Positions 12,485-40,242 of a stretch of DNA of 64,000 nt are shown piece by piece (positions within the stretch are counted from its first letter, which is position 1; each line of letters opens with the position of its first letter). The position numbers and the translations under genes are program-made. Location: positions 15,398,027 to 15,462,026 of the forward strand of contig NC_088712.1 of the NCBI RefSeq assembly GCF_963576615.1, in the 5' to 3' direction. The DNA comes from Watersipora subatra. Taxonomy: Eukaryota > Bryozoa > Gymnolaemata > Cheilostomatida > Watersiporidae. Under the pieces are notes generated by a model. The model had not been told where the DNA came from and did no database searches. It saw nothing but the letters and a program-made list of their open reading frames with translations.

Positions 12485-13582
12485 AGTTCGGTCGGTTGCT
12501 TTGACTGACAACTTTTTTAATCTCATGCCTGTCCATTCTGATCGGTTTGACTTCCAGCTCCACGCGCGGCCAGTAAGCCTCATCAGAGTGTAGTACAGGA
12601 TTTTATTAAAAAGTTGAGAAAAACCATTCTCTGATCTTCCAAAATACCAAAATGTGCGGTATGTGCAATTATGTGCTCTTCACTGTGACATCACTTGATT
12701 GCCTGAAACCTGTTACAACTGACAGGGCCACGCAAAGATGGTGAAATGCTGTAAAATGTGCTGTCAAAATCTCCTTATGCTGATCACAACACCGCACAAC
12801 CTGCACTTGCTAGGTTTGCCCTGCACGACCTTATTCATCTTGGTTCATATGGCGTCACTGACAAATTGTTCCTTCTTGACGAAGTTCTTCCTGGCCGGTT
12901 GGTTGGACATCCTGTCCACCTTTACTACAGGTGTTTTAATCCTAGCAGAGGTGCAAGTCAAAATCAGCTATCTAGTTGGCTTGACCTTGTTCAAACAAAA
13001 GAACAGAGCTGTTTCACGAAGTTCAGCCTTCTTGACCTCCTCTAGTAGAGGTTGAGGTTTTTGTGGATCTTGAGAGCAAAAGACTCACTTTCACTCAGAT
13101 GGCTAGTGGCGTTGGCAAGTTTTTTGTAAGGCACAATGTTGGCTGCTGTCAGTCGGTTTGTAAAAGTCTTAGCACCATCCATGTGTGACTCAGCTTAAAA
13201 TTCCCTGTTGCTAGAAACATGGTTGCATAGGAGACAGGCTGGTCAAGACGCTCTCCTTCTTTGCTGTTAAGGATCTCGCTGCCCCGCGCTAGTCTGTCGA
13301 GTCTGTGCTCTGACACACAACCACAGGCTCCTCGTCTGGGTTTAAGATGTTTTCAGCATTCCTTTTTTCCTGTTTTTAATGGCTCTAGCTGACTCAACTT
13401 ATCTTTAAAAAATCAATAGTCTTACTTTGTTGAGCCATGGTGATAGCTCCCTTAAACAGGCATAGTATGATTTTAGCATTAGACGATCTGTGCCAAAGAC
13501 AATCCTCTCTTCAAAGTGAGGCAGCAACTCTTATTCTGAATAAAGAATTGTCTCTGGCAGTTTTATCAGACAAATATAGTAA
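12485..13582 (-). mobile_element. 1.1-kb retroelement segment, copy 1
   Basis: Colinear with 26062-27190 over its whole length, with small indels. At 26-29 kb this block sits just after integrase-like coding on the minus strand, so it is probably the 3' part of the same Ty3/Gypsy-type element. On the minus strand it gives broken frames with no domain I recognise. The match stops at ATATAGT near 13580, where a microsatellite begins. Stops and frameshifts show it is dead. Confidence 0.6.
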
Positions 13583-16599: not shown

Positions 16600-16920
16600 T
16601 ACACTGAGTAGCTTTATGCTTTACTATAATAGGAGCTGTGTTCAACTACTTATCCAATAGGGCCATCATGACTTTTATAGTTGCAAAAGGACTGGCAGAG
16701 CCGCAAAATGATGCGACAACAATAATAACTAGTGACGCCATTTTGCAAGTATTTTTTGTGAGAGCCTAAACTGCGATGAAGTTTTGTCAATAATAATCTT
16801 GAAACATTCTGGCAGTCGGATCAAATTATATCAAAATTATATTATCAAAAAAATTCCGATACTTTCTGATAAAACTTACTTACATTTTGTGAAAGTTCAT
16901 TTTTAAACACACCAAACCTA
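16600..16920 (+). mobile_element. Foldback-MITE family, single-arm copy
   Basis: Carries family landmarks in order: GTGACGCCATTTTGCA, ATCTTGAAACATTCTGGCAG, CCGATACTTTCTGATAAAA and TTTTGTGAAAGTTCATTTTT. The last landmark merges into the duplicated gene block. Confidence 0.6.
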
Positions 16921-17572
16921 CCAAGCTGGGAACATCATAATGAACTACATAGAACTTGTTAAAAACTTAATAGTGGCTTTACCACATAATATTTTAGTTC
17001 TTTGACAGAGATCTGTCAGTTAACATTCTTTCTAGTATTATATGCAAACCAAATACTAGTTGTCCATAAACACAGAACTTATTTAAAGCTAACAAAAATT
17101 ATTCCGCAAATGCCACAAATTAATTAAAAGCATTTGCAGTTATTTACACAAGCTTTGTAGCCAATATTTAGATATTCAGAGAGTAAATTCTGCGGTAGGT
17201 CAAAAGGTCAAGCTTGTCAGCCTCGGTCAAATGTATATTTGAATGATCACAGCCAACTATGATGTCTCTTTCTTACAGAGAAATGCAAAACTATCACTAA
17301 CAATAATTCCTCACTAAATGCTGAATTGTTTGTAGCTTGGTCAGGCAAAGTTTGAGACTGAATGTCTATTTTTACATTTTGCAGTGTAGAACCATTAACC
17401 TAGAGTATGACAGCCTAAAGCGATAAGCACTACATAACAGTTGTTTTTTAAACAGGGCAGCTGTAAAACAAACCTTTTACAAATACATCAATGTGTTGGT
17501 GGCTTATGCATACAAATATAAAAAACTAGGCCATGAACGTTTGAAAGCTTATAAAAACATAAAATAAAACAT

Positions 17573-17580
17573 TATATAAA
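17573..17580 (+). promoter_or_regulatory. Candidate TATA box of 663-aa gene, copy 1
   Basis: TATATAAA about 345 bp before the start codon, in the block conserved between the two copies (counterpart at 32017-32024). An upstream acceptor-like TTTTGCAG near 17386, conserved as CTTGCAG in copy 2, could instead point to a spliced 5' leader. Confidence 0.3.
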
Positions 17581-17925
17581 ACCAAACTTTATTTAAAGTT
17601 TAAGTTAATATAATCACTTTCTTTGTAGACACAAAACCATTTTGTTAACAAATGTCATTTTCTGCTTGTTCCCTGTCATTACTATATTGTAAAGTAACAC
17701 GAAGCCACGTTTTTTGCTGTGCTTTTGCTTGGGTATATATTATATATAATATATGGTATATTTATAGGCTATACTATTTACAGTATTTGCCATGTTTAGG
17801 CAGCCATGAAATATTTAAAAAATATTTTTCATTCTAAACATTCTTTAATATTTTTTAACTTAAAAAATCGTCTTACTGGTTAAGACAAAATACGCAAGAA
17901 ATATTGTAATTTTTAAAATTTAAAA

Positions 17926-19917
17926 ATGCCAATAGTTCGTAGACCAGAACGCCACCTGCAATTTCTCACGAATACGAACAGAGTAAAAATATTTCTGAAA
18001 GAATATGAAAATGCAAACATTAAAGAAAATCCTACACTCCTATTGGTTGGACCAGGTTGGATGTGCCAATGTAAGCACGTGAATGGATCGTATGACTTAT
18101 TAATAGAAAGTGATAACAATATTCCTCGATACTGCTTGATTGGAGCGAAAACTGAAAACCATTTAATAGAAGCATATGTGACGGACAGCATTAGACTTGG
18201 CTTTATCGGAGAAACATTCATGGAACTAAAATCTGAAACTGTAATGACAAATTTAACAAAACTACAAGACAATGATCAGGCGATACGATACACCCTGCTA
18301 GACGACTGCAACATAGAAATAAAAGATGGCTACCTAGGCATTGCTTTTAGCGAGGGTCAAACGGAGCAAGTGAAAGCTTTAGTTATTGGTCTGAGCATAC
18401 AACTTGTTTTGACCAAACATCTTTCTCGTTTAGAACCTACGAATGTGAGAAACAGAGAGCTGCGAGAACTACGTGAGGAGTCAGCAGACGTAAATGTTCA
18501 GCTGCTCAACTCGGAATGCAAAATCACTAATAACCGGCTTATAAACCCTTTTGACAATATCTCGAAATTGGGTATTCGTTGGGTTGGAAAGGCCTATGAC
18601 GAGAGCAGGCTATCAACCATATTTGACATCGACACATTGGATGTTAAATTTCTTGTGAGACTTCCAAAACCAGACGATAAGATGCATCCAAGATTTCAAT
18701 TGCTTGATAGTGCACAAAATTTACTTTTAGAGTGTTTGGTAATAAAAGAGAAAAGTATGGTATATGAAAACGGACAAAAAGTAGCTGAAGCTGATTACGA
18801 AAGGAGAACACAGAATCCATGGCAGGCCCATGATTTTGAGCCAGTAGTTCGAGAAAACAAATGGAGGGGGCTGGTAAATGGTGCAATGCAAGAAATGTTC
18901 TACAGCTACGGCTTTCGAGATTATTATCAGATTCATTTTGATAGACTGACAAATGCTGAGCTTCAAAGGATGTATCCTCAACCGCATGAGCGTGATTTTC
19001 GAAGTTTGAGTCCACCAAAAACTGACATTGTCGCAAAGTATCATGTCAATGCTAAACATATGGGAATACTTGAAATAATGAAAACCAACCTCACAGCTGA
19101 CCAGAAAAAAATTATTATGGCTCAGCTTATCAAAACCCTGTTCATATTTACTCAGTCTTTATTAGACACGCCCTACATAGCCGATTTTCAACCCCCAGAA
19201 TGTTCCTGCTGCCATCACTATATCAAGTATGACCAAGATCAGCAACACGGAGCCTTTGATCTAGCTGACTTGAACCAACATAGACTGCTGTCTTTTTGGG
19301 AAAGTGGTTACGACAGCAACACTGACACTTTCTATCTTCATATCATTGATAGATCTAACACCAAAGTTTTGCTTACTTCTGAAATAACTCCAAATGCAAA
19401 AACCGATGGCCTTCAGGGTCTGAAACATGCAACGGTAAGGGATGCTGCTGGAAATTACCTTTTCAGCATAGACAAGTTGAAAGAACCTTTGTCTATTGTA
19501 GAAAAAAGGGGCTTTTGCATGACGTGTGTAGATGTTCATGGGAAACTAATTGGTAAAGTAAGTAACTTTGAAATAGAAGACTCGGAAGGAGAAAAGCGGT
19601 ATGAGCATGTTATGATACCTGTTAAAAAAATTGACTACACAACTCATCAAACCAGAATATTAACCGGGCACTTGGTTGGTTCTACAAATTTCAGAGAGTA
19701 CAAAGTATGTGTTCGGCTATCTACAACGCACTGTGAGACTGTTATGCTACCCGAACATGCTAATGAAGCTCGTGCCCTCTACCCACTAATCCTGACTTTT
19801 ATGATAGTTCAGCGAGTAAGATTGTTCTCCATGACAAAAAACTATCCTCTTCATATAGCTAAACTCTCACATTGCTACAGTAGATGCGATAAAGTTGGAG
19901 CCCACAATCATTTGTAA
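17926..19917 (+). CDS. Unrecognised 663-aa three-module protein, copy 1
   Basis: Intronless, intact, start ATGCCAATAG shared with copy 2. I cannot name it. Predicted features: no signal peptide. Three beta-rich stretches each end in a hydrophobic helix: helices at about 148-166 (ALVIGLSIQLVLTKHL), 393-414 (IIMAQLIKTLFIFTQSLL) and 613-634 (ALYPLILTFMIVQRV). A strand-rich barrel closed by a greasy C-terminal helix is the plan of the tubby/scramblase/LOR superfamily, and pieces such as YLFSIDKL and DVHGKLIGKV read like that fold; this is weak inference. Charged linker at about 167-190 (RELRELREESADV). Cysteine cluster CSCC at 426-429 followed by HH. Alternative: a lineage-specific family with membrane-facing helices. 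An AATAAA lies 66 bp after the stop. Confidence 0.88.
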   Translation: MPIVRRPERHLQFLTNTNRVKIFLKEYENANIKENPTLLLVGPGWMCQCKHVNGSYDLLIESDNNIPRYCLIGAKTENHLIEAYVTDSIRLGFIGETFMELKSETVMTNLTKLQDNDQAIRYTLLDDCNIEIKDGYLGIAFSEGQTEQVKALVIGLSIQLVLTKHLSRLEPTNVRNRELRELREESADVNVQLLNSECKITNNRLINPFDNISKLGIRWVGKAYDESRLSTIFDIDTLDVKFLVRLPKPDDKMHPRFQLLDSAQNLLLECLVIKEKSMVYENGQKVAEADYERRTQNPWQAHDFEPVVRENKWRGLVNGAMQEMFYSYGFRDYYQIHFDRLTNAELQRMYPQPHERDFRSLSPPKTDIVAKYHVNAKHMGILEIMKTNLTADQKKIIMAQLIKTLFIFTQSLLDTPYIADFQPPECSCCHHYIKYDQDQQHGAFDLADLNQHRLLSFWESGYDSNTDTFYLHIIDRSNTKVLLTSEITPNAKTDGLQGLKHATVRDAAGNYLFSIDKLKEPLSIVEKRGFCMTCVDVHGKLIGKVSNFEIEDSEGEKRYEHVMIPVKKIDYTTHQTRILTGHLVGSTNFREYKVCVRLSTTHCETVMLPEHANEARALYPLILTFMIVQRVRLFSMTKNYPLHIAKLSHCYSRCDKVGAHNHL

Positions 19918-19982
19918 GAATTTAATTTCTAATTAAAACAATTGATTTAATTACAATTTCATAAGTTTTCAAATTTATACCA

Positions 19983-19988
19983 AATAAA
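19983..19988 (+). terminator. Poly(A) signal of 663-aa gene, copy 1
   Basis: AATAAA 66 bp after the stop codon; copy 2 has one 70 bp after its stop. Confidence 0.55.
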
Positions 19989-20104
19989 AAATGCGGGCAC
20001 TACTTATAACTTAATCTGTTCTACCATGTCTTTTGTTTGGAGCTTTTTTGGAAGTAAGTTTTGTCAGCATAAAAGCAGCACCCTTAAATATTTTTGCAAC
20101 ACTT

Positions 20105-20151
20105 TTTTGTTATCATGCTTTTGTAAAATCTGCAAAAGCATGATAACAAAA
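20105..20151. repeat. Perfect 19-bp hairpin at duplication/BEL junction
   Basis: TTTTGTTATCATGCTTTTG (20105-20123) is the exact reverse complement of 20133-20151, with a 9-base loop. The left arm belongs to the gene's 3' flank (present in copy 2); the right arm starts the BEL/Pao side. The breakpoint sits in the loop. Confidence 0.82.
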
Positions 20152-20883
20152 TCGGCCAAATCAGCAAAAGCTGATTCAGCTAACAAAACTTATCCAGACT
20201 TCAAAGAATTTGCAGAATTTATTAATGAAGAAGCCCAAATCATGACACTTCCAATATCACAAACAATGATATCACTGAGTCATAAACCAAGCAAACATAA
20301 TCACAGTGATAAACCTAGCACAAAAAAGGAGCCATTAAAAATTTTGCAACTTTTATTGAGCAAAAGAAGAAATGTATTTGTTGCAAATCAACTAACCACA
20401 ACACTGCAGACTGTTACCGTCTCCAAAAAAAGGTCCAAACTAGAAAAGGAAGAACTTCTTCGAACAAATGAGCTGTGTTTCAAATGTTTAGGGTATGGCC
20501 ACATATTGAAGGATTATGATAAGAAGATAATATGTATGAAGTGTAAAGAAGGACATGCCACGGCTAATCACGACTCCAACTACCAGTATGGCAAGGCAAC
20601 TTCAAACACTGGTGGATCTAATCAGACTGATGTTGAAACAAAGCCACAAAAAACAATGAAAGCTCACAGTACCACTAAGGCACTGAAATGTCAAATAACA
20701 GAAGCGAACACTTTAACAAGCATGGTTGTACCTGTTTATATCTCAGCAGGTACAGGTTGTGAAATGCTAGTTTACGCTCTTCTTGACAACATGTCGGACG
20801 CATGTTATGTATCAAAAGATGTAGTAGCAACATTCAAAACAAGAACTAGTGAAACAGAAAAACGTCACTATACACACCATTAA
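20140..20883 (+). pseudogene. BEL/Pao gag end and protease
   Basis: A gag-like PDFKEFAEFINEEAQ stretch, then two knuckles. The first reads CFKCLGYGH ... KDYDKK, with Tyr where the last zinc Cys is expected. The second is CMKCKEGHATANH. The protease site reads ALLDNMSDACYV, where family members have an Asp-Thr/Ser-Gly box, so the peptidase is probably dead. The frame ends at 20883 and pol continues in another frame. Confidence 0.75.
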
Positions 20884-22250
20884 CGAACCAGTAACTGAAG
20901 ACACCGAAAGATTTGATGACATTATGCTGTGTGGTTATTTAACAAATAGCTATGCACATATTAGTGCCTACAAGGGTGAATACATATATTGTGACAGAAA
21001 TCAGTTACCCACTAAAGAAAAGGCTGCTAAACTAGGCCACCTAAAAGACATAGCAACACAATTCCCTTCCTTGATGGACATACCAGTTGGACTTCTAATA
21101 GGAATGAACTCCGCAGAAGTAATTCAGCCTTTAGAAACAAATCCAACAGTTAATGGAAAAATGGGCAAAGCCTATGGAGTAAAAACGCTATTTGGGTGGA
21201 CTATGTGTGGAGTTACACCAGAAACCATCTACAAATCTCGAAAAACAGCTTATAAAGCAGACACGTCCAAAAATGTACGATTGCTAAATATCCTGGAAAG
21301 AGACTTCCAAGACACAAATGAAGATTCATACTTATCTCAAAACGATGTCAAATTTACGAAAATTTTAGAGACATCAACTCAGCAGAATACAGCTGGAAAT
21401 TATGTCATCCCTTTGCCATTCAAATCACCATTGCCTATATTACTCAATAACAAGAGACAAGCTAAACATCGTCTACACATCTAGCTGAGAAAGTTCTCCA
21501 AAGATTCAGAATACAAATGCAAATACACAACATTTATGAACAACCTGATCAAGGCAGGGCATGCTCAAGAGGCAACATCGGCTGCTGGGGAGGTTCAAGT
21601 ATGGTACATAGCTCATTTTGGTGTCAGAAATAAACAGAAACGAAAACTTTGAGTGGCCTTTGATGCTAGTTTCAAGTTCGATAGAGTCTCATTAAATGAC
21701 ATGCTGTTACCTGGACCAGATCACATCAACTCCATACTTGGCATACTAATCAGATTTCGATGAGCGCCTGTAGCAATAACATGCAACATTCAGCAAATGT
21801 ACTACAACTTTCTGGTAGTTTCGGAGCACAGAGACTGCTTACGATTTTTGTAGATGAATGATGGGGGTGAGGTTAAAGAGTTTAAAATGAATTTTCACCT
21901 GTTTGGTGCAACATCATCATCAGGTGTGACAACCTTTGAATTATGAAGGTTAGCCAGTGACTACAAGTCCCTCTCACCACTTGCCTCAAAGTTCCTACAG
22001 AATGAATTATATGTCGACGGTGGTGTAACAAGCGTTGCTACTGCTGAAGATGCTAAAGGCCTAATCACAGCCTCAAGAGAAATGTGCGCAAAAGGGAACA
22101 TAAGACTACACAAATTTCTCTTTAATAACAAGGAACTACTAGCCACAGTACCTATTTTTGAGCGTGGTGAATTGACGAAAGCTATAGACTTAGTCACAGG
22201 AACGCTTCCTAGGGAATGAACGCTTGGAGTGAAATGGTGCTTGGCGACTG
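20849..22250 (+). pseudogene. BEL/Pao reverse transcriptase region
   Basis: The first part (to 21484) has MDIPVGLLIGMNSAEVI and TLFGWTMCG, typical of the segment between protease and RT. Past the stop at 21484 several frames carry RT pieces: FHLFGATSSSG near 21893 and ELYVDGGVTS near 22007. The catalytic YxDD is YVDG, so the second Asp is lost. Stops interrupt every frame. Confidence 0.8.
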
Positions 22251-22252
22251 AC

Positions 22253-22648
22253 ACCTTTCACTTTGGCATCCAAGAACTACAAAACAAACCATCAACTGAA
22301 AGCTCAACCATAGCTCAAATTTACGACCCCAGTTGGCTCATTTCACCTTTGATTTTAAAAGGAAAGCAAATTCTCTAGAGAGTAGTTGCCTCAGAACAAC
22401 TATTGGACCAACTCATGTGTCCAGATGACAAGCAAAAATGGGAGGGTTAGACCTTTCACTTTGGCATCCAAGAACTACAAAACAAACCATCAACCGAAAG
22501 CTCAACCATAGCTCAAATTTACGACCCCAGTTGGCTCATTTCACCTTTGATTTTAAAAGGAAAGCAAATTCTCTAGAGAGTAGTTGCCTCAGAACAACTA
22601 TTGGACCAACTCATGTGTCCAGATGACAAGCAAAAATGGGAGGGTTAG
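22253..22648 (+). repeat. 198-bp in-frame tandem duplication inside BEL pol
   Basis: 22253-22450 is repeated at 22451-22648 with about one change. 198 is 66 codons, so the frame is preserved. It covers the RT/RNase H linker (HFGIQELQNKPS ... AQIYDPSWLISPLIL). Such high identity shows that it arose long after the element lost function. Confidence 0.92.
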
Positions 22649-22675
22649 AGAACTGAAATAACCAATCTAACAGCA

Positions 22676-23135
22676 TTGAGCATACCACGATGTTTCAAAA
22701 CAGAAATCAACATAGTGAGCACTGAATTGCATCACTTTAGTGATGCAAGTCTGAATGGCTATAGTGCTTGCTCATATATTAAACAGGTTAATGAGAGCGG
22801 AAAAATTTTGTGCAATCTGATCTTAGCCAAATCCCGAGTAGCCCCACTAAAAAATCCCACTATTCCTAGGCTTGAGTTGCAGGGAGCTGTAACTGCAACT
22901 CGCCTCGCCAATGTGCTAAGGAAGGAGTTGAAGCTTAGTGTAGACAAATAAACTTTCTGGATTAATTCTCAAATAGCGCTGGGATACATATCCTATGATG
23001 TCAGAAAGTTTCATCTGTATGTTGCCAACAGGGTAAGTAAAATTAGGAAGACAACTGAACCCAAACAATGGAATTCCGTTCCGGCAGAGTTTAATCTGGC
23101 AGACATAGCTTCTCGTGGAATAAGTGCTAAAGAAA
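22676..23135 (+). pseudogene. BEL/Pao RNase H
   Basis: HHFSDASLNGYSACSY holds the first catalytic Asp, and RLELQGAVTATRLANVL the Glu. After a stop at 22951, FWINSQIALGYIS has Asn where a catalytic Asp is expected. FNLADIASRGI closes the domain. Confidence 0.75.
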
Positions 23136-23589
23136 TCATTGATAATGAAATGTGGCAGAATGGTTCCCCTTCTTCAAAGACCTTGATGTGCTAGATTTCA
23201 TTAAGAAAAATTGGGTCAACACAACAATCAATGAATCTGACCCAGAAGTGTGAAAAAAGGAACTAGTTACCATGGCTACTTTCCACACACAGAGCATAGC
23301 GAGAAAATTCACTCGATTCAGTAGTTGGAAGAAGCTAGTGCACAGCATAGCATTGCTGAAGAGCTTTGTCAAACAGAAATAGTGGATGTGCAAAGAGTTG
23401 AAGACCAATGATCTGAAAGAGGCAGAAGTACTTATCTTAAAAATGGCACAAGCAGAGAGTTATTCTATGAGGGAGACGGAGAATTCTCTCATCAAGCTCA
23501 ACCCCAAGATTGATGACCAAGGTATAGTTCGTGTTGGTGAGAGAGCCAGTGCTTCAACATTGAGTTATCAGTAAAAATACCCTATCATC

Positions 23590-24310
23590 ATTTTTAAGAA
23601 CTCTCACCTAGCCTATCTTTTGACAGTGCATTACCATAAACCAATATTACATTTAGGAAGGAAAAGCACACTCGCAGCAATTAGAGATGCTGGAATATTC
23701 ATGGTAAATGGAGCTGGTGTGGTAAAGCATGTGCTTAACCAGTGTGTAGGATGTGCTAGACTAAGAAAGGCACCAGAGACACAAATTATGGGAGAACTTC
23801 TCAAAGAAAGGAAGGAGGCTACTCTTCCATTCACGAACAATGGAATCGACACCTTCAGACCTTATTACGTGAAGGACAAATGCACAGAGCTGAAAAGATG
23901 GAGACTTCTGATAACCTGCCTCTACTCTAGAGCAGTTCATATATAGGTCTTAGACAACATGAGCGCAGACACTTTAATACAAGCCCTGAGATGCTTTATG
24001 GCCTTAAGAAGGCCCGTTCAAACAATATATTGTGACAATGGAACTAATTTTGTTGGAGCTAAGAATGAGATTGAAAAACAACTAGAGATAACCAGTAAGG
24101 AAACTAAGCAATACTTGCTAGAGAACCTCATTCATTTCAAATTCAACTCGCCTGAGGCAAGTCATCAAGGAGGAGTCATGGAAAGAATGATTCGTTCGGT
24201 TAGAGCAGAACTCAATGCAATGACCTTCAAGCTGAAAAACAAACTGGACATCAAAACCCTAAGAACTTTTTTTATGAAGCAGGAAATATCATCAACAGTA
24301 GGCCCCTGAC
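23590..24310 (+). pseudogene. BEL/Pao integrase
   Basis: An HHCC zinc region (HYHKPILHLGRK ... NQCVGCARL), then the catalytic core: GIDTFRP, QTIYCDNGTNF and SHQGGVMERMIRSVR supply the D, D and E residues. An in-frame stop at 23944-23946 and another at 24307 break it. Confidence 0.8.
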
Positions 24311-24512
24311 CGCCACCTCAAAAAGCGATCCCAAGGATCATGTGACTACACCTAATCGTATCTTGACCATGAAAAGTCAATCATTACTGTCACCACCACC
24401 TGGAAACTTTACCGAAGATGATTTGTATAGCAGCAAACGGTGGAAGATAGCCCAAGCAGCAGCAGAGGTGTTCTGGAAAACATGGTAAACTGAATATCTG
24501 AACAGCATAACA

Positions 24513-24746
24513 ATTCGTCAGAAATGGTCAAGGATGAGACCCAATGTCAAAAAAAGAGACATTGTCACTGTCAAAGACAACCAGGCAGCTAAAATTGATT
24601 GGAAGCTAGGTAGAGTGACCGAAATTATTGCAGGCTCAGACGGCTTGGTGCCCAACCTAAAAATCAAAATAGAGAACCGATTTCTTGATAAAAAAGGGTT
24701 ACCCATGCACCCACCAACTGTTCTGCAGAGTTGGTACACAGTGTAG
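24513..24746 (+). pseudogene. BEL/Pao polyprotein C-terminus
   Basis: VKDNQAAKIDWKLGRVTEI followed by GSDGLVPNLKIK and the final PPTVLQSW. This beta-rich tail follows integrase in BEL/Pao polyproteins. Confidence 0.75.
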
Positions 24747-24889
24747 TAGTTTTGCTAAGTACTTAGATTAGCAACTATATATCAAGTAGGATTATTCATT
24801 ATCAATAATTTAGTGTGAATTAATCAACAATTAATAGACCAAAAACAAGCAGCAAAAAACTGTGTATTACAATAAATTAAAAAAACTTA

Positions 24890-25360
24890 GTTGGGAGTGC
24901 AGGAAAAGTTTATTAGCTTAGCATTCCTGGAGCTGATGCCAAGTCAAATCGGCCTAATACGTGATGACCAATGATAGTTGCCGGTATTGAGTCATATGCT
25001 AAAGTTTTGCTCAGCTCATAGCGTAACATTTTTCTAACTTCTGTAGAAGGCAGCCAGATTTGAATCATTACTCTTAATTATTAAGTTTTCAATTGCTAAG
25101 GGATTATTTATTAGAGCTTACAGGTTAGTTGCATGTGCTATTTTTATTTTATTATACCATGTTATATTGTTTCTTGTCACATTTCAGTACTTTTACTTGC
25201 TATTATACTGTAACTTTTCATATTCTATTGCATTCATAATTATTGTGCTTTGCAAGTTGGTATAAAAATGTTACTGAAATGTTATTTCAGGTTACAAGGT
25301 GAAATTAAAGACTGTGAACCGCGCACTTAACCAGTGAAGTCATCTCTCTTAAAATCCTGA
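24890..25360 (+). mobile_element. Possible 3' LTR of BEL/Pao element
   Basis: GGGAGTG after a purine-rich run could mark a polypurine tract and the LTR start about 150 bp past the pol stop. The stretch has promoter-like TATAAAAATG near 25260 and ATTAAA near 25303. No partner LTR is in the window, so the limits are a guess. Confidence 0.3.
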
Positions 25361-26061
25361 ATGAATTCAATATTTGGAGTTTCCAACAAACTCTACGCTC
25401 TGCTTTCATTGGCTCATTTAGGCTTCTTATACAGTTTCTATGTTAATACTCACCTCTCAGTCGCCGAGCTAATTTGTTATTTGGTCTTTGATCATCCAGA
25501 AGCTCTACTGCGAGCTGAGCCATTGGTCAATTTGAGGATCAACTCAAGGTTCAGCTCAGTACTGGCGTTTGTCTCTATATTTCCTGCTTTCTTTCTTCGC
25601 TCAGCCCTGGAACTGGTGATTTGCCACTCTACTTTTTCTCCCTCAGTGGAAACCCTGAAAGCCACCTAATCACATTTGTGGGAGGAGCTCAACTGAGACC
25701 AGAACCAATGTTTCTGAGCTTAATACTTGAGGCGGTGGACCTCCGATTTTGCAAAGGCGCTATCATCCTCCCTCATCTACTTTGGTCTAATCAGGCTAAA
25801 AGTGCCCATAGCCAATTACTGTTAGTGACGGCTATCTTTCAAAAGCTGCCGGATTCATTTTTCTTAACCACGATGGAATGGCTGTTCAATTAGTGGACAT
25901 CTTGATATCTAAGCCAGATGGTCCGAGCGTGACTTTGCCAGTGTCGGGTTAGGTGCCTGTATGGTAGATTTATTAATAAAGCAGTGCACGGGCCAGTCTG
26001 TCCACTCAGTAGACTTGAACTGGCTTGAACAATTGCCAAGACAGATTTGGCTCCGGCGGTT
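25361..26061. repeat. Repeat segment related to 34975-35160
   Basis: 25385-25515 (CTCTGCTTTCATTGGCTCATTTAGG ...) matches 34981-35150 in diverged form. The remainder shows no gene. It may be part of an LTR of the neighbouring Gypsy-type element. Confidence 0.4.
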
Positions 26062-27239
26062 TGATTGGTTGCTTTGGGGGATAATTTTTTTAGTCTCATA
26101 CCTGTCCATAATGATCGGTTCGACTTCTAGCTTCTTGTGGGGCTAGTGGGCCTCCATCATAGTGTAGCACAAAATTTTATTAGAAAGTTGGCAAACCATC
26201 CTCTGATATTAAATAATGCCATTCACTGGTTTTTGTCAACTAAGTATCCAGTACTTCCTCCCTTGCCACCATTATATGCCCCTTGCTGTGACATCACTTG
26301 ATTGCGTGAAACCTGTTGCAAACCCCCAGGGACATACAAAGATGGTGAAATGCTGTTAAATGTGCTGTCAAATCTCCTTATGCTGTTGGCAACACTACAC
26401 AAATTAAACTTGCTAGGTTTGCCCTGCATGACCTTGTTAATTTTGGTCCACATAGCATTGTTGAAAAATTGTTCCTTCATGACGAAGTTCTTCTTGGCCG
26501 GTTGGTCGGACATCCTGTCCACCTCTACTACTGGTGTTTTAATACTAGCAGATGTGCAAGTCAAAATCAACTATCTAGTTGGCTTGACCTTGTTCAAACA
26601 AGAAAACAGTGCCGTTTCAACAAGTTCAGCCTTCTTGACCTCTTCTAGCCAGTTAAGATTTTTGTGAATCTTGAGAGCAAAAGACTTACTCTCACTCACA
26701 TGGTTAGTGGCGTTGGCAGGTTCTTTGTAAGCCACAATATTGACTGCTGCCAGACAGTTTGTAAAAGTCTTTGCACCATCCAAGTGTGACTCAACTTGAG
26801 TTTCCTTGTCACTAAAAACATGATTGCACACGGAGACAGGCTAGTCAAGACGCTCTCCTTTTTTGCTGTTAAGGATCTCACTGTCTCACGCTAGTCTGCC
26901 GAGTCTGTGCTCTGACACACAACCACTGTGACATGCTCCACGTCTAAGTTTAGGAAGATCTCAGCATTCCTTTTTTCCGGTTTTTAATGGCTCTAGCTGA
27001 CTCAACTTATCTTTAACAAATCAATAGTCTTACTTTGATGAGCCATGGTAATAGCTCCCTTAAACAGGCATAGTATGATTTTAGCATTAGATGATCTATG
27101 CCAAGGACAATACTCTACTTAAAGTGAGTCAGCAAACTTTTATTCTGAATAGTAAATTGTCTTTGGCAATGTTATCAGACACATATAGTTAGGATAAGCC
27201 TTTATGATTTGGTACGCTGCAACAAATTCTAACTGTATT

Positions 27240-27940
27240 TGGAGGTTGTCTCCTCTCTGTCAATGCTTATTTACCAGCCATACTTAATGCCCAGGATCTT
27301 AGAGAAGATGTTCTTTCTGGTCCTCTTGTTTGATGGCTACCTACTTTTTTGAGGATGGCACAAATTTGCTCCACCTGCTTGAGCATCTCCTCTATATACT
27401 CATAGGTTGGTTGAGTTTCTAAGGGTGGGAGATAATATTTCAGTTAGCCAGGTAAGAGCAACTCCTCGCTGGCCATAGCTGTTTTCATTGTTGCCGAGTA
27501 AGGCATGCTTCTGTATGCCCTCATCAGTTGAGAGAAAATTGTGTCTTACACTTCCTGGCTTCGAGTCAGCAAAGTGCTTGGAGTAAGTCCCCAGCTGTAA
27601 ATCTTTACATTCCGCCACTCCATTAGCTTGTTAGCTTGCTGATAATAGAGGTGATGATAATAGATAATAGATGGTGTGTGACTTTTCTACATGCCAGAGC
27701 CGATACAGTTCAATCATCAACTGATTCTCAAACTGCTCTTTGGTCTTTGTAGGTCTGTTCCAACAAGACCATATAACAGAGTACTTTCTCGTTCAAAGCG
27801 CCAGCCACCGCTGGTTCCGTGACTTCTGAGAAGGCCAAATAATTTAACCATGTGGAAAAGTGGTCAATCAGCGCTAGTCTGTACTTGTTGTCTTTGGGTG
27901 TTGTCAGCAGTGGCACCAAAAAGCTTACTCCTGCTTTCTG
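27240..27940 (-). pseudogene. Gypsy integrase core and tail
   Basis: PLLTTPKDNKYRLALIDHFS at 27919-27860 matches the integrase core start with the first Asp; FSEVTEPAVAGALNEKV and KDQ follow. Past stops, a MRAYRSMP-like stretch and YEYIEEMLKQVEQICAI resemble the Gypsy integrase tail. Confidence 0.65.
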
Positions 27941-28849
27941 TTAGGGGTGTTCTGTTTACAGTCTCTGCCAACTGTTCGCTGTGTTTATTTCTCTGTGTTT
28001 AACGTTTGACTTACTTCGCAGCTCTTACCGGTCTCCTTACTGGCGCTGATATCCTACGCGAGTACAATGTAAGGCAGAGACAACTGGTCATCTTTGTCAC
28101 TTTAAACTGGGCAAAAACACCTTTGTTTGCCACACGGTGGTTTTTTTAATAACTGGCGTGCAGATTGCACGCTACCGAAACCAATTGTGAAAAGATATCC
28201 CGGCTTCTAATACTCCAATCAGCCATATTAAAAAAACGGCCAGTTATTGTTTAATTATCAAAGCTTTCGATCCTTAAACTCTAGTCGATTTTTAGTATGC
28301 TCTTCTTAGTATGCCCAAAAATGTGCTTGATACATAGTGGCCACGAGCCTCCAATCTACAGCCTAAATGCAAGTCAGTTCCTTGTCGACGTCCCCTCAAG
28401 TCTTTACCCAGGCCATGTCACAGAGTCTCAGGGTGACTTCAGCCGATCTAAAACCAACTCCTCCATTGCCGTAGTAGCAGCGGGCAGGCCCGTGTGACCG
28501 ATCGTCTCACGCACAGTTCTGACAACTGACACTTTTTTTGGGTTTTCTCGAGCCTACTCAACAAGACCTGACTTTATATGGATAGCTCCTCTTTGGTGAG
28601 TCTGCCATACCTTGATTGGATGAGGTCACAATGAGATGGTCCATGAAAATTTGTTGGTTTAGCCCGGCAGTGTACACAGACCGGTTTGGTGCTCCAAAGT
28701 GTACTTAATTTTGGCCCAAACTTTCAGCCATGTGATTACCCAATTGAACAGAGTTTTTTACATGTGCAACCGGTGGCGAGAGGCATGGTCAGCGCCGAGC
28801 CGAAATTGCTCTCCATAGAGACAAAGCTGGACATATTTCACAGCCTAGA
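27941..28849. other. Gypsy-derived spacer with no clear frame
   Basis: Lies between the RNase H and integrase remnants. A pair of inverted stretches (AATAACTGGC near 28147 and GCCAGTTATT near 28240) may mark a small insertion. No gene is seen. Confidence 0.35.
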
Positions 28850-29170
28850 TCACGGCCAACAGCTCCACCTTAGTGAACAAGTAATTATTCTCTGCAGATC
28901 CAAATGTCTCATTGAAGTAAGCAACCACTCGCTTGGTTCCGCTTTGAACTTGGGATACTACGGCTACCACTCCACAACCACTCGCATCTGTGTCCAATAT
29001 GTAAAGCTGGCTCATAATGGGTTAGCACATAACAGGTGCCAAAATTATGCGTTAGTTCTGAGCCTTCTCACTCAGAATGCATCAACCGTATAGTATCTTA
29101 TTGTGCCCAGAAGGCTTTGCAGTTCCTTGAGCTCTCTGAGAGTTAACCATTCTCATACTGCCTTCTTTTT
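28850..29170 (-). pseudogene. Gypsy RT end and RNase H
   Basis: The minus strand reads EWLTLRELKELQ and IRYY, then YILDTDASGCGVVAV and KRVVAYFNETFGSAE. This is the usual RT-to-RNase H join, with the first RNase H Asp present. Confidence 0.65.
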
Positions 29171-29203
29171 CTCAAGTTCAGAAGTCATTTTTTAGTCATT
29201 ATT

Positions 29204-30030
29204 CAATTGAGACTTCTACATGCTTGAAACACTAATCATAACTCGGCAGTTCTTCGTCTATAGCCTGTGTTTTGACATGGTATATACAAACTGTGCAGCA
29301 GTAATGTGGTTGTGTTGATAAAATTTATTATCAACAAAATCTACTATATAAACTACATATATGGCCTCTCACCTTTCCAATGTAAGGCATTACATCTGGA
29401 GCAGTTTCACACCTGCCTTTCACATTTCATAGTCAATTGGCTAAGAGCCGTGCTGTGCCAACAAAGCTCGGAACCTATGGACGGTAGTATCTTATCATTT
29501 CTAGGAAGCCTTGCAGTTGCTTAAGCTCTCTAGAAGTTGGCCATTCTTGTACTGTCTTTTGTTCCCAAGTCCAGTAACCATTTTTCAGCGCTGATCACAT
29601 GGCTTGAGCTTGAGTCTGACTCCTTTCAATAGCTGAAACACCATCTTCAGTCAATGCAGGTGCGTGTCAGTCTGTTGTGGTGACTATTATTCAATTAAAT
29701 AAAATAATAATCTTATTATAATAATAATGATGTAAATTGGACTCACTAGTTGCTATCCTTGTTATAGTTGATATTAGCTATTGTGTGTAAGTTGCAGCAT
29801 TACACGTCCCTATTCTGTTGGTGTGTTTGCAACTATAAAAATCAAAACAGCTCTCATGCTTGGTCTGAGCATTTTTACCACGATCAAGACTTGAGGATTT
29901 TAATCTAAAACATCCTGACAGTCAGATTATCCCAAGCATTTGAAACAATCGCAAATGATGAAACAAATACCAACACTTTCTGATAAAAGTTGATAAAACT
30001 GTATGCAAGCTCACCTTCAAACAAAAATGT
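29204..30030. repeat. 0.8-kb duplicated block, copy 1
   Basis: Nearly identical to 35578-36390. It includes a Gypsy RT scrap at its left end and a single-arm MITE copy at its right end. Confidence 0.85.
29740..30030 (+). mobile_element. Foldback-MITE family, single-arm copy
   Basis: Family landmarks: ACTCACTAGTTGCTATCC, GCATTACACGTCCC, TTTGCAACTATAAA, CATCCTGACAGTCAGATTA, ACACTTTCTGATAAAA and CAAGCTCACCTTC. Confidence 0.65.
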
Positions 30031-30039
30031 GTTTACTCT

Positions 30040-30480
30040 GTGATATTTTTATATATTTTTATATATTTTTATATATTTTTATATATTTTTATATATGTAT
30101 ATATTTTTATATTATATTTTTATATAATTTTCATATAATTTTTATATATATTTTTATATACCACCCACTTCACCCTACCCCATACCCCGCTGCACGACAT
30201 TGATTTTTATATTTATATTTATATATATATAAAATATATATATTTATATTTTTATATATTTTTATATATTTTTATATATTTTTATATATTTTTATATATT
30301 TTTATATATTTTTATATATTTTTATATATTTTTATATATTTTTATATATTTTTATATATTTTTATATATGTATATATTTTTATATTATATTTTTATATAA
30401 TTTTTATATAATTTTTATATATATTTTTATATACCACCCCACTTCACCCTACCCCATACCCCGCTGCACGACATTGATTC
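30040..30480. repeat. TTTTTATATA 10-bp minisatellite, duplicated with a unique tag
   Basis: Exact 10-bp repeats at 30045-30100 and 30240-30370. Each array is followed by the same tag (CACTTCACCCTACCCCATAC then GCTGCACGACATTGATT), so array plus tag was duplicated, as in the 8.2-9.0 kb array. Confidence 0.85.
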
Positions 30481-31039
30481 GTTTCTTTGTTGGCATCGTA
30501 AGGCGAAAATGTCGTATAGGAAGTATAAAAGCTCATAATAATTATGCAATGCAAACCCACCTTGGTAAAAAACATCATAATTTTATATACGTACTGTAAT
30601 TATTAAAACTATTATCAAAATATGATATTAACTTTAGTAACTATAATTAAGTTTCTGTTAACTTAGTAACTCTAGCTTTGTTGCAATAGTTATTTTTTTA
30701 CTTCTTCTTTTAACATCATTGTCAAACTTACGACCGGCGGCTAACGATATAAAGTTATATATGTAGTTATATAGTTATATATGTTTGATGAATTAAAGCT
30801 CATAGTAAATCTTATATTAGATGCTCAAATGTGCAATAAACTTTCATTTTCCTTTTATTAATTTTACTAATCTTCTTTTTGATTATGCAATAAAAATATT
30901 CGCAAAACACGAAGAATGCTCAACTCAATTAGAGAGAAAAAAAAGCACAATATCTCTTTCATACATTGTGGAAAAGATTTCAGCGAATAAAAAATCAACA
31001 TCTTTGATATTCTGACGTATTCAGCACACCGACTGTCAA
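30481..31039. other. No gene seen
   Basis: AT-rich spacer. A short frame at 30821-31015 has no recognisable domain. Confidence 0.35.
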
Positions 31040-31360
31040 ATTTGATGTTCGAGAAAGCCTTTTGGCAAAAAAGTCGTATGGCAGGGCAAGAAAATTGTGT
31101 TCTACACTGTAAAGCAAGAACTACTTATAACAGAGACATCGTAATGCGGGGTTGCATTGTAATGAATAGCGACGCCATTTTGAAAGTAATTTTCTTGGGA
31201 GTGCTTAAAGTGCGATCAAATTTTGTCGATTTTATTCTTGAAACATTCTGACAGTCAGATCCCCTAAAATACTCAAACAAATCCAATATTATAGAAAGAT
31301 TTTGATACTTTCCAATAAAATTTACTTAGATTTTGTGAAAGTTCATTTTTAAACACACCA
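31040..31360 (+). mobile_element. Foldback-MITE family, single-arm copy
   Basis: GCGACGCCATTTTGAAAG, TCTTGAAACATTCTGACAG, GATACTTTCCAATAAAA and TTTTGTGAAAGTTC. It occupies the same position relative to gene copy 2 as 16600-16920 does to copy 1, but is more diverged than the DNA that follows. Confidence 0.6.
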
Positions 31361-32016
31361 AACCTATCAAGCTGGGAACATCATAATGAACTACATAGAA
31401 CTTGTTAAAAACTTAATAGTGGCTTTACCACATATTTTATTTCTTTGACAAAGATCTGTCAGTTAACATTCTTTCTAGTATTATATGCAAACCAAATACT
31501 AGTTGTCCATAAACACAGAACTTATTTAAAGCTAACAAAAATTATTCCGCAAATGCCACAAATTAATTAAAAGCATTTGCAGTTATTTACACAAGCTTTG
31601 TAGCCAATATTTAGATATTCAGAGAGTAAATTCTGCGGTAGGTCAAAAGGTCAAGCTTGTCAGCCTCGGCCAAATGTATATTTGAATGATTACAGCCAAC
31701 TATGATGTCTCTTTCTTGAGAAATGCAAAACTATCACTAACAATAATTCCTCACTAAATGCTGAATTGTTTGTAGCTTGGTCAGGCAAAGTTTGAGACTG
31801 AATGTCTATTTTTACATCTTGCAGTGTAGAAGCACTAATCCAGAGTATGACAGCCTGGTACTGTATGACTAGATAACAGGCGCATTTTAAACTGGCGAGG
31901 GTAGCTATAAAACAAACTTTTTACAATTACATCAATGTTTTGGTAGCTTATGCATACAAATATAAAAAACTAGGCCATGAACGTTTGAAAGCTTATAAAA
32001 ACATAAAATAAAACAT

Positions 32017-32024
32017 TATATAAA
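32017..32024 (+). promoter_or_regulatory. Candidate TATA box of 663-aa gene, copy 2
   Basis: TATATAAA about 325 bp before the start codon, in the near-identical upstream block. Confidence 0.3.
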
Positions 32025-32346
32025 ACCAAACTTTATTTAAAGTTTAAGTTAATATAATCACTTTCTTTGTAGACACAAAACCATTTTGTTAACAAATGTC
32101 ATTTTCTGCGTGTTCCCTGTCATTACTATATTGTAAAGTAACACGAAGCCACGTTTTTTGCTGTGCTTTTGCTTGGGTACATATATTTAGATAATATTTA
32201 CAATATTTGCCTTGTTTAAGCAGAAATGAAATATTTAAAAAATAATTTTCATTCTAAACATTCTTTAATATTTTTAAACTTACAAAAATCGTTTTACTGG
32301 TTAAGACAAAATACGCAAGAAATATTGTAACTTTTAAAATTGAACG

Positions 32347-34338
32347 ATGCCAATAGCCCGCAGACCAGAACGCCACCTGCAGTTTCTCACGAATACAAAC
32401 AGAGTCAAAATATTTTTGAAAGAATATGAAGATCCAAACATTAAAGAAATTCCTACACTCCTTTTGGTTGGGGCAGGTTGGATGTGCCAATGTAGGAATG
32501 TGAAAGGATCGTATGACTTATTAATAGAAAGTGATAACAATATTCCTCGATACTGCTTGATTGGAGCGAAAACTGAGGACCATTTAATAGAAGCATATGT
32601 AACGGACAGCATTAGACTTGGCTTTATCGGAGAAACATTCATGGAACTAAAATATGAAACTGTTTCGACAAATTTAACTAAACTACAAGATGATGATCAG
32701 GCAATACAGTATACTCTGCTAGACGGTTGCAATATAGAAATAGCAGATGGCTACCTAGGCATCGCTTTTAGCAAAGGTCAAACGGAGCAAGTGAAAGCTT
32801 TAGTTATTGGTCTGAGCATACAACTTGTTTTGACCAAACATTTTTCTGCTTTAGAACCTACGAATGTGAGAAACAGCGAGCTGCGAGAACTACGTGAGGA
32901 GTCAGCAGACGTAAATGTTCAGCTGCTCAACTCGGAATGCAAAATCACTAATAACCGGCTTATAAACCCTTTTGACAATATCTCGAAGTTGGGTATTCGT
33001 TGGGTTGGAAAGGCCTACGACGAGTGCAGGCTATCAACCATATTTGACATCGACACATTGGATGTTAAGTTTCTTGTGAGACTTCCAAAACCGGATGATA
33101 AGATGCATCCGACATTTCAATTGCTTGATAGTGCACAAAATCTAATTTTAGAGTGTTCGGTAACAAAGGATAAAAGTATGGTATATGAAAATGGACAAAC
33201 AGTAGGCGAAGCTGACTACGAAAAGAGAGCACAGTATTCTTGGCAAGCCCATCATCCTGGCATGTTAATTAGAGAAAACAAATGGAGGGGACTGGTAAAT
33301 GGTTATATGCAAGAAATGTTCTACAGCTATGGCTTTCAACATTATTATCAGATTCATCTTGATAGACTGACAAGTGCTGAGCTTCAAATGATGCATCCTC
33401 TACCGAATCAGCGTGAGTTTCGAAATTTGAGTCCTCCAAAAACTGACATTGTTGCAAAGTATCACACCAATGCTAAACATCTTGGAATACTTGAAATAAC
33501 GAAAACCAACCTCACAACTGACCAGAAAAAAATTATTGTGGTTCAGCTTGTCAAAACCATGATCTTATTTACTAAGAATTTATTAGACACGCCGTACATA
33601 GCTGATTTTCAGTGTCCAGAATGTTCTTGCTGCCATCACTATATCAAGTATGACCAAGGTCAGCAACACGGAGCCTTTGATCTATCTGAATTGAACAAAC
33701 ACAGACTGCTGTCTTTTTGGGAAAGTGGTTACGACAACAGCACTGATACTTTATATCTTCATATCATTGACAAATCTAACTGGAGAGTTTTGCTTACATC
33801 TGAAATAACTCCAACTGCAACATCCGATGGCTTTCGAGGTCTGAACCAGGCAACGGTAAGGGATGCTGCTGGAAATTACCTTTTCAGCATAGACAACTTG
33901 AAAGAACCTTCAATCGTTGCAAAAAATCGAGGCTTCCCCATGAAGTGTGTAGATGTCCATGGGGAACTAGTTGGTAAAATAGGTCGCTTTGAGATACACA
34001 ACTCAGAAGGAGAAAGGCTGTATAATCACATTACGGTACCGGATAAAGAAGTTGAGTACACAGCGCATGAATCTAGAATTTTAACTGGGTACTTAGTTAA
34101 TTCTACACATTTGAAAGAGTACAAATTATTTGTTTGGCCAAATGTAATGCATTGTGAGACTGTTATGCCACCTGCGAGTGCAAATGAAGCTCGCGCCCTC
34201 TACCCACTAATCCTGGCTTTTATGATAGATCAGCGAGTAGGGTTGTTTTCCGGGGAAGAACACTATCCTCTTCATTTAGGTAAACTTTCGCTTTGTTACA
34301 GTAGATGCAATAAAGTTAGAGCCCACAATCATAAGTAA
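32347..34338 (+). CDS. Unrecognised 663-aa three-module protein, copy 2
   Basis: Same length as copy 1 with no net indel, intact and intronless. The same three predicted helices occur (ALVIGLSIQLVLTKH; IIVVQLVKTMILFTKNLL; ALYPLILAFMIDQRV), and the CSCC-HH cluster and charged linker are kept. Difference from copy 1 is uneven by hand count: 16 of 143 residues at the N-terminus, 5 of 123 at 144-266, and 50 of 135 at 529-663. Conserved islands in the C-terminal part are DVHG, SEG, RILTG, HCETVM, ANEARALYPLIL and CYSRC. Two intact copies with concentrated replacements suggest both are expressed and under different selection, or that conversion homogenises the front. Function is unknown; the tubby/scramblase-like fold is a weak guess. 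Confidence 0.88.
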   Translation: MPIARRPERHLQFLTNTNRVKIFLKEYEDPNIKEIPTLLLVGAGWMCQCRNVKGSYDLLIESDNNIPRYCLIGAKTEDHLIEAYVTDSIRLGFIGETFMELKYETVSTNLTKLQDDDQAIQYTLLDGCNIEIADGYLGIAFSKGQTEQVKALVIGLSIQLVLTKHFSALEPTNVRNSELRELREESADVNVQLLNSECKITNNRLINPFDNISKLGIRWVGKAYDECRLSTIFDIDTLDVKFLVRLPKPDDKMHPTFQLLDSAQNLILECSVTKDKSMVYENGQTVGEADYEKRAQYSWQAHHPGMLIRENKWRGLVNGYMQEMFYSYGFQHYYQIHLDRLTSAELQMMHPLPNQREFRNLSPPKTDIVAKYHTNAKHLGILEITKTNLTTDQKKIIVVQLVKTMILFTKNLLDTPYIADFQCPECSCCHHYIKYDQGQQHGAFDLSELNKHRLLSFWESGYDNSTDTLYLHIIDKSNWRVLLTSEITPTATSDGFRGLNQATVRDAAGNYLFSIDNLKEPSIVAKNRGFPMKCVDVHGELVGKIGRFEIHNSEGERLYNHITVPDKEVEYTAHESRILTGYLVNSTHLKEYKLFVWPNVMHCETVMPPASANEARALYPLILAFMIDQRVGLFSGEEHYPLHLGKLSLCYSRCNKVRAHNHK

Positions 34339-34407
34339 GAATTTAAAGAATTTTTAAAATGTTCAATTTATTTAATTATGATTTTTTAAATTTTCAAAAT
34401 TACGATA

Positions 34408-34413
34408 AATAAA
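34408..34413 (+). terminator. Poly(A) signal of 663-aa gene, copy 2
   Basis: AATAAA 70 bp after the stop codon. Confidence 0.55.
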
Positions 34414-34553
34414 AAAATGCATGCACTACTTATAACCCAACCTGGTCTAGCATGTCTTTTATTTAATGCTTTCTTGAAATTAAGTTTTATCAGCATAAAA
34501 ACAGCACCTTTAGTTATTCTTGCCACTCTTTGTTGTTATCATGCTTTTGTAAA

Positions 34554-35577
34554 CATCTTTCAGAATTTGGGCAACCTGCTATGAAAATTTTAAAATATTT
34601 TTTTAGTTTACAAAATCAACCAACATTAGTTTAAAAAGTTATCAACACAGTTTGCAAATGTTCAGCAGCTAATAAACTCATATGCTGTTAGTTTCAAAAC
34701 CAACTATTACCATGACGGTCAATTGCGCCACAAGAGATTGTTACCTGTGTCAATAAAGGCTAGGGAACAACCAATTATAACAACCATACACATAATTATT
34801 CTACATTTGAAGGCGAGCGTTTAATTTAACTCATTCTAGTCCGCAGCTGCTGCTTCCCAAAGATCAAAATACTTGAGTACAAGGCAATGAGTATATCTAC
34901 ATGTATTTCATGCATATATATGGGTAAAGCTTAAGATGCAATACACATGAAATAAACTGCACAATACAAGACTTCAAGATGCTCTGCTTTCTTTGGTTCA
35001 TTTAGGATCCTGATATAGTTTCTGCGCTATGTTAAGCTCATCCAAATTACCAGATATTTGGATAAAATTATAGCACCAAATTAGCTCAGTGCTATAATGT
35101 CACTAGCTAATTTGGTAGCTAGTCTTTAATCAACCAGAGGCTCTATTGCACACCTGCCTTTCACGTTTCATAGCCAACTAGCTGCATTACCCGTGTTCGG
35201 AAACAGATTTATGTAAAGCAAGTTTTATTGATAGTTGTCTTTCATACTGTAAAACAACTCCAAATATGCAATCTACTGAAATTTTTGTGCTGACCTGACT
35301 GCATACACATATGCAGTCGTACATGTCAATAATGTTAAAGAGACCAATGAAAATATGCAATGTGTTTTACAGCTAGTCTACAATGCATCAGTCTCGAACC
35401 AGTCAAATTGGAATTGTCCTAATTTTGTACACAGAACTGATAATGAAGTTGACATTGCTAGGCAAACTGAAGTTCTTCAAACTGGCAGTATTGAAAAGTT
35501 TTACATATTTTAACTTTAAATATTTTAAGAAATTCTAGAAAGTATTTTGCTATTGCACTGTTAAGCTATCGCAAGCA
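34554..35577. other. Spacer with repeat relics, no gene
   Basis: 34981-35150 matches 25385-25515. A CACACCTGCCTTTCACGTTTC fragment near 35151 also occurs in the 35578 block, so this is retroelement debris. AGCACCAAATTAGCT and AGCTAATTTGGTAGCT near 35072-35128 form a small imperfect hairpin. Confidence 0.45.
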
Positions 35578-36390
35578 TTTATTCAATTGAGACTTCTACA
35601 TGCTTGAAACACTAATCATGACTCGGCAGTTCTTCGTCTATAGCCTGTGTTTTGACATGGTATATACAAACTGTGCAGCAGTAATGAGGTTGCTGATAAA
35701 ATTTATTATCAATAAAATCTACTATATAAACTACATATATGGCCTCTCACCTTTCCAATGTAAGGCATTACATCTGGAGCAGTTTCACACCTGCCTTTCA
35801 CGTTTCATAGCCAATTGGCTAAAGGCCGTGCTGTGCCAACAAAGCTCGGAACCTACGGACGGTAGTATCTTATCATTTCTAGGAAGCCTTGCAGTTGCTT
35901 AAGCTCTCTAGAGGTTGGCCATTCTTGTACTGTCTTTTGTTTCCAAGTCCAGTAACCATTTTTCAGCGCTGATCACATGGCTTGAGCTTGAGTCTGACTC
36001 CTTTCAGTAGCTGAAACACCATCTTCAGTCAATGCAGGTGCCTGTCAGTCTGTTGTGGTGACTATTATATTCAATTAAATAGAATAATTATCTTATTATA
36101 ATAACAATGGTTTGAACTGGACTCACTAGTTGCTATCCTTGTTATAGCTGATATTAGCTATTGTGTGTAAGTCGCAGCATTACACGTCTCTATTCTGTTA
36201 CTCTCTTTGCAACTATGAAAAACAAAATCGCCCTTATGCTTGATCTGAGCAGGTTTGTTGATTTTAATCTTGAAACATCCTGGCAGTCAGATCACCTCAA
36301 AGCATCAAAAACAATGGCAAACGATAGAAAAATACCGATACTTTCTGATAAAATCTTCTAAAACTTGGCGCAAGTTTATCTTTAATCAAT
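35578..36390. repeat. 0.8-kb duplicated block, copy 2
   Basis: Matches 29204-30030, including the Gypsy RT scrap and the MITE copy at 36110-36385. Confidence 0.85.
36110..36385 (+). mobile_element. Foldback-MITE family, single-arm copy
   Basis: Same landmarks as 29740-30030, which it duplicates (GTTGCTATCCTTGTTATAG ... CATCCTGGCAGTCAGATCAC ... CCGATACTTTCTGATAAAA). Confidence 0.65.

Positions 36391-40211: not shown

Positions 40212-40242
<31 letters not shown>

Follow-up and report, generated by a model that had tools for sequence, protein, structure and literature searches.

Background

For opsins and in theory, PMC3924837 describes strong divergence of a selected coding part next to introns that have diverged little. 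In the copepod Tigriopus californicus, GOT1p1 and GOT1p2 form a mosaic of strongly and weakly diverged parts, which PMC3728101 attributes to ongoing conversion between these paralogs. Here we analyze a pair of duplicated genes found in a 64,000-nucleotide stretch of the bryozoan Watersipora subatra (contig NC_088712.1, 15,398,027 to 15,462,026; hereafter the window, in whose coordinates all positions are given). The two copies form a clear mosaic, with near-identical upstream patches and diverging protein ends, which, given sequences from relatives, could be useful for telling conversion and selection apart. Patchy and partly recent interlocus gene conversion following an old local duplication fits this mosaic best and is its probable cause; the pattern would be one of partial concerted evolution of duplicates, which is already a known kind.

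The locus resembles the primate red/green opsins and the theory of Innan and of Teshima and Innan in combining low noncoding with high coding divergence between duplicates (PMC3924837, PMC2588116). It differs from the opsins in offering only two sequences for comparison and no residues of known function, and any selection against conversion is conjectural here. With GOT1p1/GOT1p2 it shares the mosaic of divergence, whereas the copepod genes come with population data and have been assigned a putative enzyme function (PMC3728101).

Divergence along the two copies

Two intact single-exon open reading frames (ORFs) of 663 codons, running from ATG to stop and each preceded by an in-frame stop a few codons upstream of the ATG, lie 14.4 kb apart in direct orientation (Table 1). 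The blocks carrying them were aligned by blastn with 88.3% identity over 3435 columns. By global alignment, the identity was 92.6% in the 5' flank (16723-17925), 88.0% in the coding sequence and 80.8% in the 3' flank. The initial annotation of this DNA, according to which the copies resemble each other more outside their coding sequence than within it, was thus right on the 5' side but not on the 3' side. The 3 substitutions and one 3-bp gap that it reported upstream were recovered exactly (17041-17385, 342 aligned bases), position 17041 pairing with 31484 instead of 31483.

The ungapped protein alignment contains 136 differences over 663 residues, distributed as 16/143 in residues 1-143, 5/123 in residues 144-266, 34/134 in residues 267-400, 31/128 in residues 401-528 and 50/135 in residues 529-663; the first, second and last of these counts had been given before and were reproduced without change. 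Codons 522-528 look one codon out of register, with a compensating shift (LSIVEK-R vs -SIVAKNR). Thus, despite the intact frames of equal length that had also been noted, the copies are probably not strictly free of indels, and the count of 31/128 would be somewhat inflated while that of 50/135 would be unaffected.

Along copy 1, 7 of 148 aligned bases differ at 16858-17008, ahead of two upstream near-identical tracts, islands A and B, which are separated by a diverged spacer. Successive noncoding segments from island A to the ATG differ by 0.5%, 18.7%, 0.4% and 11.4%, the latter corresponding to 19 of 166 aligned bases at 17736-17925. The 3' flank, at 19.2%, serves as a local yardstick of neutral divergence. 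Within the gene, 40 of 429 bases differ in codons 1-143 (17926-18354) and 187 of 1197 at 18721-19917, on either side of a coding island at codons 144-265; the coding parts outside this island and the 3' flank together range from 9 to 19%. The segment edges were drawn after the identical runs had been seen, and these percentages describe the mosaic without testing it; the shuffle tests are independent of the edges.

In 2000 shuffles of 16858-20131, no identical run attained the observed length at any of the first four ranks (218, 164, 110 and 100 columns), and the dispersion of the difference events, at 5.20, exceeded the highest shuffled value (1.97). When the test was confined to upstream noncoding DNA, none of 5000 shuffles matched the top three runs (218, 164 and 100). 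The longest run in codons 267-663 was 47 (P = 0.057 by shuffling). By these run-length tests, near-identical tracts inside the diverged paralogs exceed chance, as expected of a gene pair under interlocus conversion.

Silent and replacement changes

Pairwise codon estimates were obtained by maximum likelihood (ML) with our own script, using F3x4 frequencies and a single kappa of 2.92. For codons 1-143, 144-266, 267-400, 401-528 and 529-663, respectively, the synonymous divergence (dS) was 0.25, 0.08 (0.075), 0.17, 0.18 and 0.28, and the ratio of nonsynonymous to synonymous divergence (dN/dS) was 0.23, 0.31, 0.85, 0.78 and 0.87. A counting method gave dN/dS values of 0.19, 0.24, 0.63, 0.63 and 0.77, which agree in direction. 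A single dN/dS across the five segments was rejected (P = 0.011), the whole-gene value being 0.63 and below 1 (P = 0.003); codons 1-266, at 0.26, stood apart from codons 267-663, at 0.84 (P = 0.0006).

At fourfold sites, the same five segments showed 10/45, 2/48, 3/30, 4/37 and 9/36 differences (heterogeneity P = 0.033). The 2/48 of codons 144-266, against 26/148 elsewhere (P = 0.019, a modest value that concerns the coding island only), indicate that this island has diverged little at silent sites as well, which is what conversion would lead one to expect. Judged by their silent sites, codons 1-143 and 529-663 appear to be of the same age (10/45 vs 9/36, P = 0.80), but their replacement rates differ strongly. 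The C-terminal excess thus mainly reflects a higher dN/dS (0.87 vs 0.23), and the C-terminal divergence is a matter of constraint or selection and not only of escape from conversion.

Probable gene conversion and its alternatives

From the mosaic we infer the following course of events. The gene would have undergone a local duplication in direct orientation, at a time remote enough for neutral divergence to have reached about 20%. Later, interlocus gene conversion would have copied short upstream stretches (about 230-370 bp) between the genes. These conversions would be recent because divergence is about 0.5% in the islands against about 20% around them. Codons 144-265 would have been converted too, more weakly, and the C-terminal 60% of the protein would have escaped recent conversion, amino-acid changes accumulating at about 0.6-0.9 times the synonymous rate with the frame kept. 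Relaxed and possibly copy-specific constraint would be the likeliest reason for this rate, to which selection for differences may add. Homogenisation of the 5' part by conversion, as first proposed, thus fits best but in a patchy form, since the upstream islands are split by 124 bp at 18.7% divergence and codons 1-143 are diverged.

The main competing explanation is that the upstream DNA has been conserved for its function. Islands A and B (369 and 234 bp) could be strongly constrained cis-regulatory elements preceding a protein with a fast-evolving end, and no conversion would then be needed. Consistently, their location 190-920 bp ahead of the ATG could be that of a promoter, and the intervening spacer has diverged to the neutral level; a TATA-like stretch is present at about 17733-17755 in copy 1, but copy 2 differs there. 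Near-total constraint (3 differences over 600 aligned bases) would however be needed ahead of a fast-evolving protein, and the low silent divergence of the coding island has to be accounted for as well. A scan of the window gave no Rfam family at its gathering score, which speaks against known RNA genes only. We consider this explanation unlikely.

Penalised segmentation of the block retained one step only, at 18720 (codon 265), where divergence rises from 6.0% to 16.3%. Such a single step would fit an exchange in which one copy received the sequence 3' of codon 265 from a third and more distant member of the family. This chimera seems very unlikely, in that codons 1-143, on the low side of the step, have a dS as high as the C-terminus and no third copy was found within the window (best other match E = 0.044).

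Several observations weigh against patchy conversion. With only two sequences compared, phylogeny cannot separate conversion from functional conservation of the islands. Codons 1-143 lie between homogenised patches and yet have a high dS, so that several separate events are required. With a single segmentation step, it is the run tests that carry the finer islands, and support for the coding island is modest throughout: besides the fourfold-site comparison given above, the longest identical run in codons 1-266 (110) had P = 0.016 by shuffling and the longest stretch without synonymous change had P = 0.035. Finally, mutation rates may not be the same at noncoding as at synonymous sites, given a contrast in the observed/expected CpG ratio, which is 0.90 (17926-18723) and 0.83 (32347-33144) over codons 1-266 of the two copies, 0.49-0.63 further 3' and 0.50 in the window. 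The 5' part of the gene is possibly unmethylated.

Selection on the C-terminal part

Codons 267-663 contain no stop, against 8.5 expected in a neutral simulation of which none of 2000 runs was stop-free, and no alignment gap, against 18 expected from the flank ratio of 9 gaps to 93 substitutions. The reading frames are kept by selection, with the probable compensating indel pair at codons 522-528 as a reservation. An ORF maintained at a mean dN/dS near 0.85 evolves fast.

The initial annotation had offered strong diversifying selection on the C-terminal module as an alternative to conversion. Under this explanation the module would serve the recognition of variable partners and selection would purge conversions there; it is compatible with conversion elsewhere, so that the probabilities of the two overlap. 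Identity along the block was not flat and the C-terminal dN/dS was not well below 1, as the proposal would have it, with ML values of 0.78-0.87 in a clearly maintained ORF. In a two-sequence site-class test (M2a vs M1a) on codons 267-663, a class above 1 was favoured with P = 0.004, with P = 0.003 after removal of codons 521-528 and with P = 0.006 after removal of codons 303-307 as well. Amino-acid differences were also adjacent more often than in shuffles (44 vs 33.0, P = 0.006), a count that includes the probably misaligned residues 522-527.

On the other side, dN/dS was significantly above 1 in none of the five segments by the ML codon test, and the 0.84 of codons 267-663 did not differ significantly from 1 (P = 0.34). 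Codons 529-663 alone gave neither a site-class signal (P = 0.77) nor significant adjacency (P = 0.20). Changes with a negative BLOSUM62 score were not commoner at the C-terminus (19/50 in residues 529-663, against 11/21 in residues 1-266), and domain searches found no known recognition domain. Moreover, the site-class signal was lost (P = 1.0, dN/dS 0.69) when codons 521-528 were removed together with the codons carrying adjacent double changes, of which there are 22 in codons 267-663 (369 of 397 codons kept). This is a harsh correction, and the optimiser of the site-class script issued overflow warnings.

Adjacent double changes in a codon can come from single multinucleotide mutations, and the site-class signal for positive selection is for this reason not secure. 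Codons with at least two changes were in excess in codons 1-266 (8 vs 3.3 expected, P = 0.007) and not significantly so in codons 267-663 (30 vs 26.0 expected, P = 0.17). Strong diversifying selection is not borne out by these results and we hold it to be quite unlikely; relaxed constraint plus a minority of adaptive changes may account for the C-terminal data. A bolder version, in which the C-terminal module is the recognition surface of an undescribed animal protein family and diversifies from one tandem copy to the other, while conversion keeps the promoters in step and both variants are co-expressed, appears highly improbable.

Searches for related proteins

No relative was detected in Pfam (whole protein and four pieces), PHROGs or NCBIfam, nor among PDB sequences queried with one copy and with the pair. 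In a set of 5.8 billion proteins, the copy 1 query returned 7071 candidates, none at E <= 10. There was no pattern match in viral contigs, and 5 pattern matches in prokaryote genomes gave no confirmed one. Pfam and PDB span all life but the contig collections are viral and prokaryotic only, so that their silence is weak evidence and the lack of a named family says little about true novelty.

A match to the LURP-one-related family (PF04525) was obtained for residues 502-571 of copy 1 with 12.3 bits (12.8 as a second Pfam value), below the cut-off of 24.5. Copy 2 differed in showing no match to PF04525 in Pfam, whole or in pieces, and the gathering score was reached in neither copy. LURP-one-related proteins are akin to tubby-like proteins and phospholipid scramblases. 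The structure models were too poor to use (mean predicted local distance difference test scores of 27.8 and 37.4) and structure searches gave no match to speak of; the model of copy 1, at very low confidence, contains three long helices (147-165, 391-414 and 609-630), with strands ahead of the first two. Together, the sub-threshold match and this strands-then-helix order hint at a tubby-like fold, as a lead and not a finding. An allorecognition role is speculation, no domain having been identified.

Sub-threshold matches to DUF6860 (PF21661) occurred in both copies at different places (109-158 and 459-500), and matches to Gasdermin_C (12.7 bits) and Cadherin_3 (13.5 bits) in single pieces; all were treated as due to chance. 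The term DUF6860 was not found in a literature search.

Table 1. Location of the duplicated genes and of the segments distinguished along them
Feature	Position	Strand	Basis or comparison
Duplicated block, copy 1	16723-20131	+	blastn vs partner 31160-34558
Duplicated block, copy 2	31160-34558	+	blastn vs 16723-20131
Copy 1 ORF, 663 codons, single exon	17926-19917	+	ORF call; in-frame stop upstream of ATG
Copy 2 ORF, 663 codons, single exon	32347-34338	+	ORF call; in-frame stop upstream of ATG
Dispersed SINE-like repeat, left edge of copy 1	16723-16909		partner 31160-31355; matches elsewhere in window
Upstream island A, copy 1	17009-17377		2/366 aligned bases differ; partner ~31452-31817 from alignment offsets
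Diverged spacer between islands A and B, 124 bp	17378-17501		23/123 aligned bases differ (18.7%)
Upstream island B, copy 1	17502-17735		1/234 aligned bases differ; partner ~31946-32179 from alignment offsets
Coding island, codons 144-265, copy 1	18355-18720	+	12/366 differ (3.3%); partner ~32776-33141
Fast-diverging part, codons 267-663, copy 1	18724-19914	+	186/1191 bases differ; dN/dS 0.84
Codons 267-663, copy 2	33145-34335	+	partner of fast-diverging part
3' flank, copy 1	19918-20131		41/214 differ (19.2%); partner 34339-34558

Repeats and surrounding sequence

Both blocks start at a repeat resembling a short interspersed nuclear element (SINE), a label of our own assigned without a repeat library. 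It has many copies in the window, including 36251-36388, 45118-45302, 46856-47001 and 63155-63294. The duplication may have arisen by unequal exchange between such elements; the two left-edge repeats are 78% alike, about as diverged as neutral DNA. We also considered a transposon gene and rejected it, the copies having no shared terminal repeat: the ends of copy 1 show one 16-base inverted match (94%, E = 0.004) and those of copy 2 only matches of 10 and 9 bases.

Each copy is flanked on both sides by a direct repeat, of 1.1 kb around copy 1 (12486-13580 and 26059-27189, 82% alike) and of about 0.8 kb around copy 2 (29199-30024 and 35579-36389, 89% alike). The latter may be part of the duplicated unit, its divergence being like that of the gene copies, or a dispersed repeat ending in SINE-like sequence. 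A fold-back-like inverted repeat of about 47 bp (20105-20151, 89% self-complementary), which looks like a rearrangement scar, sits where the homology of copy 1 stops and a gag fragment starts, belonging to a retroelement that we take to be Pao-like. No pair of long terminal repeats was found around this fragment between 20050-21000 and 24000-25450. The element contains a 198-bp unit in two tandem copies that are 99.5% identical (22253-22649).

The window contains no tRNA and no prokaryote-like gene density. Its proteins gave one CUB domain match above cut-off and sub-threshold matches to a low-density lipoprotein receptor class A repeat, a rhodopsin-type receptor and a retroelement integrase. 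Together with the many SINE-like copies, these features make an animal origin of the sequence most likely. A GA-rich simple repeat of about 820 bp occupies 39931-40751. Finally, a cysteine-rich ORF of 118 residues at 58532-58888 has a defensin-like look; its gamma-thionin match, at 22.0 bits, stays below the cut-off of 25.1.

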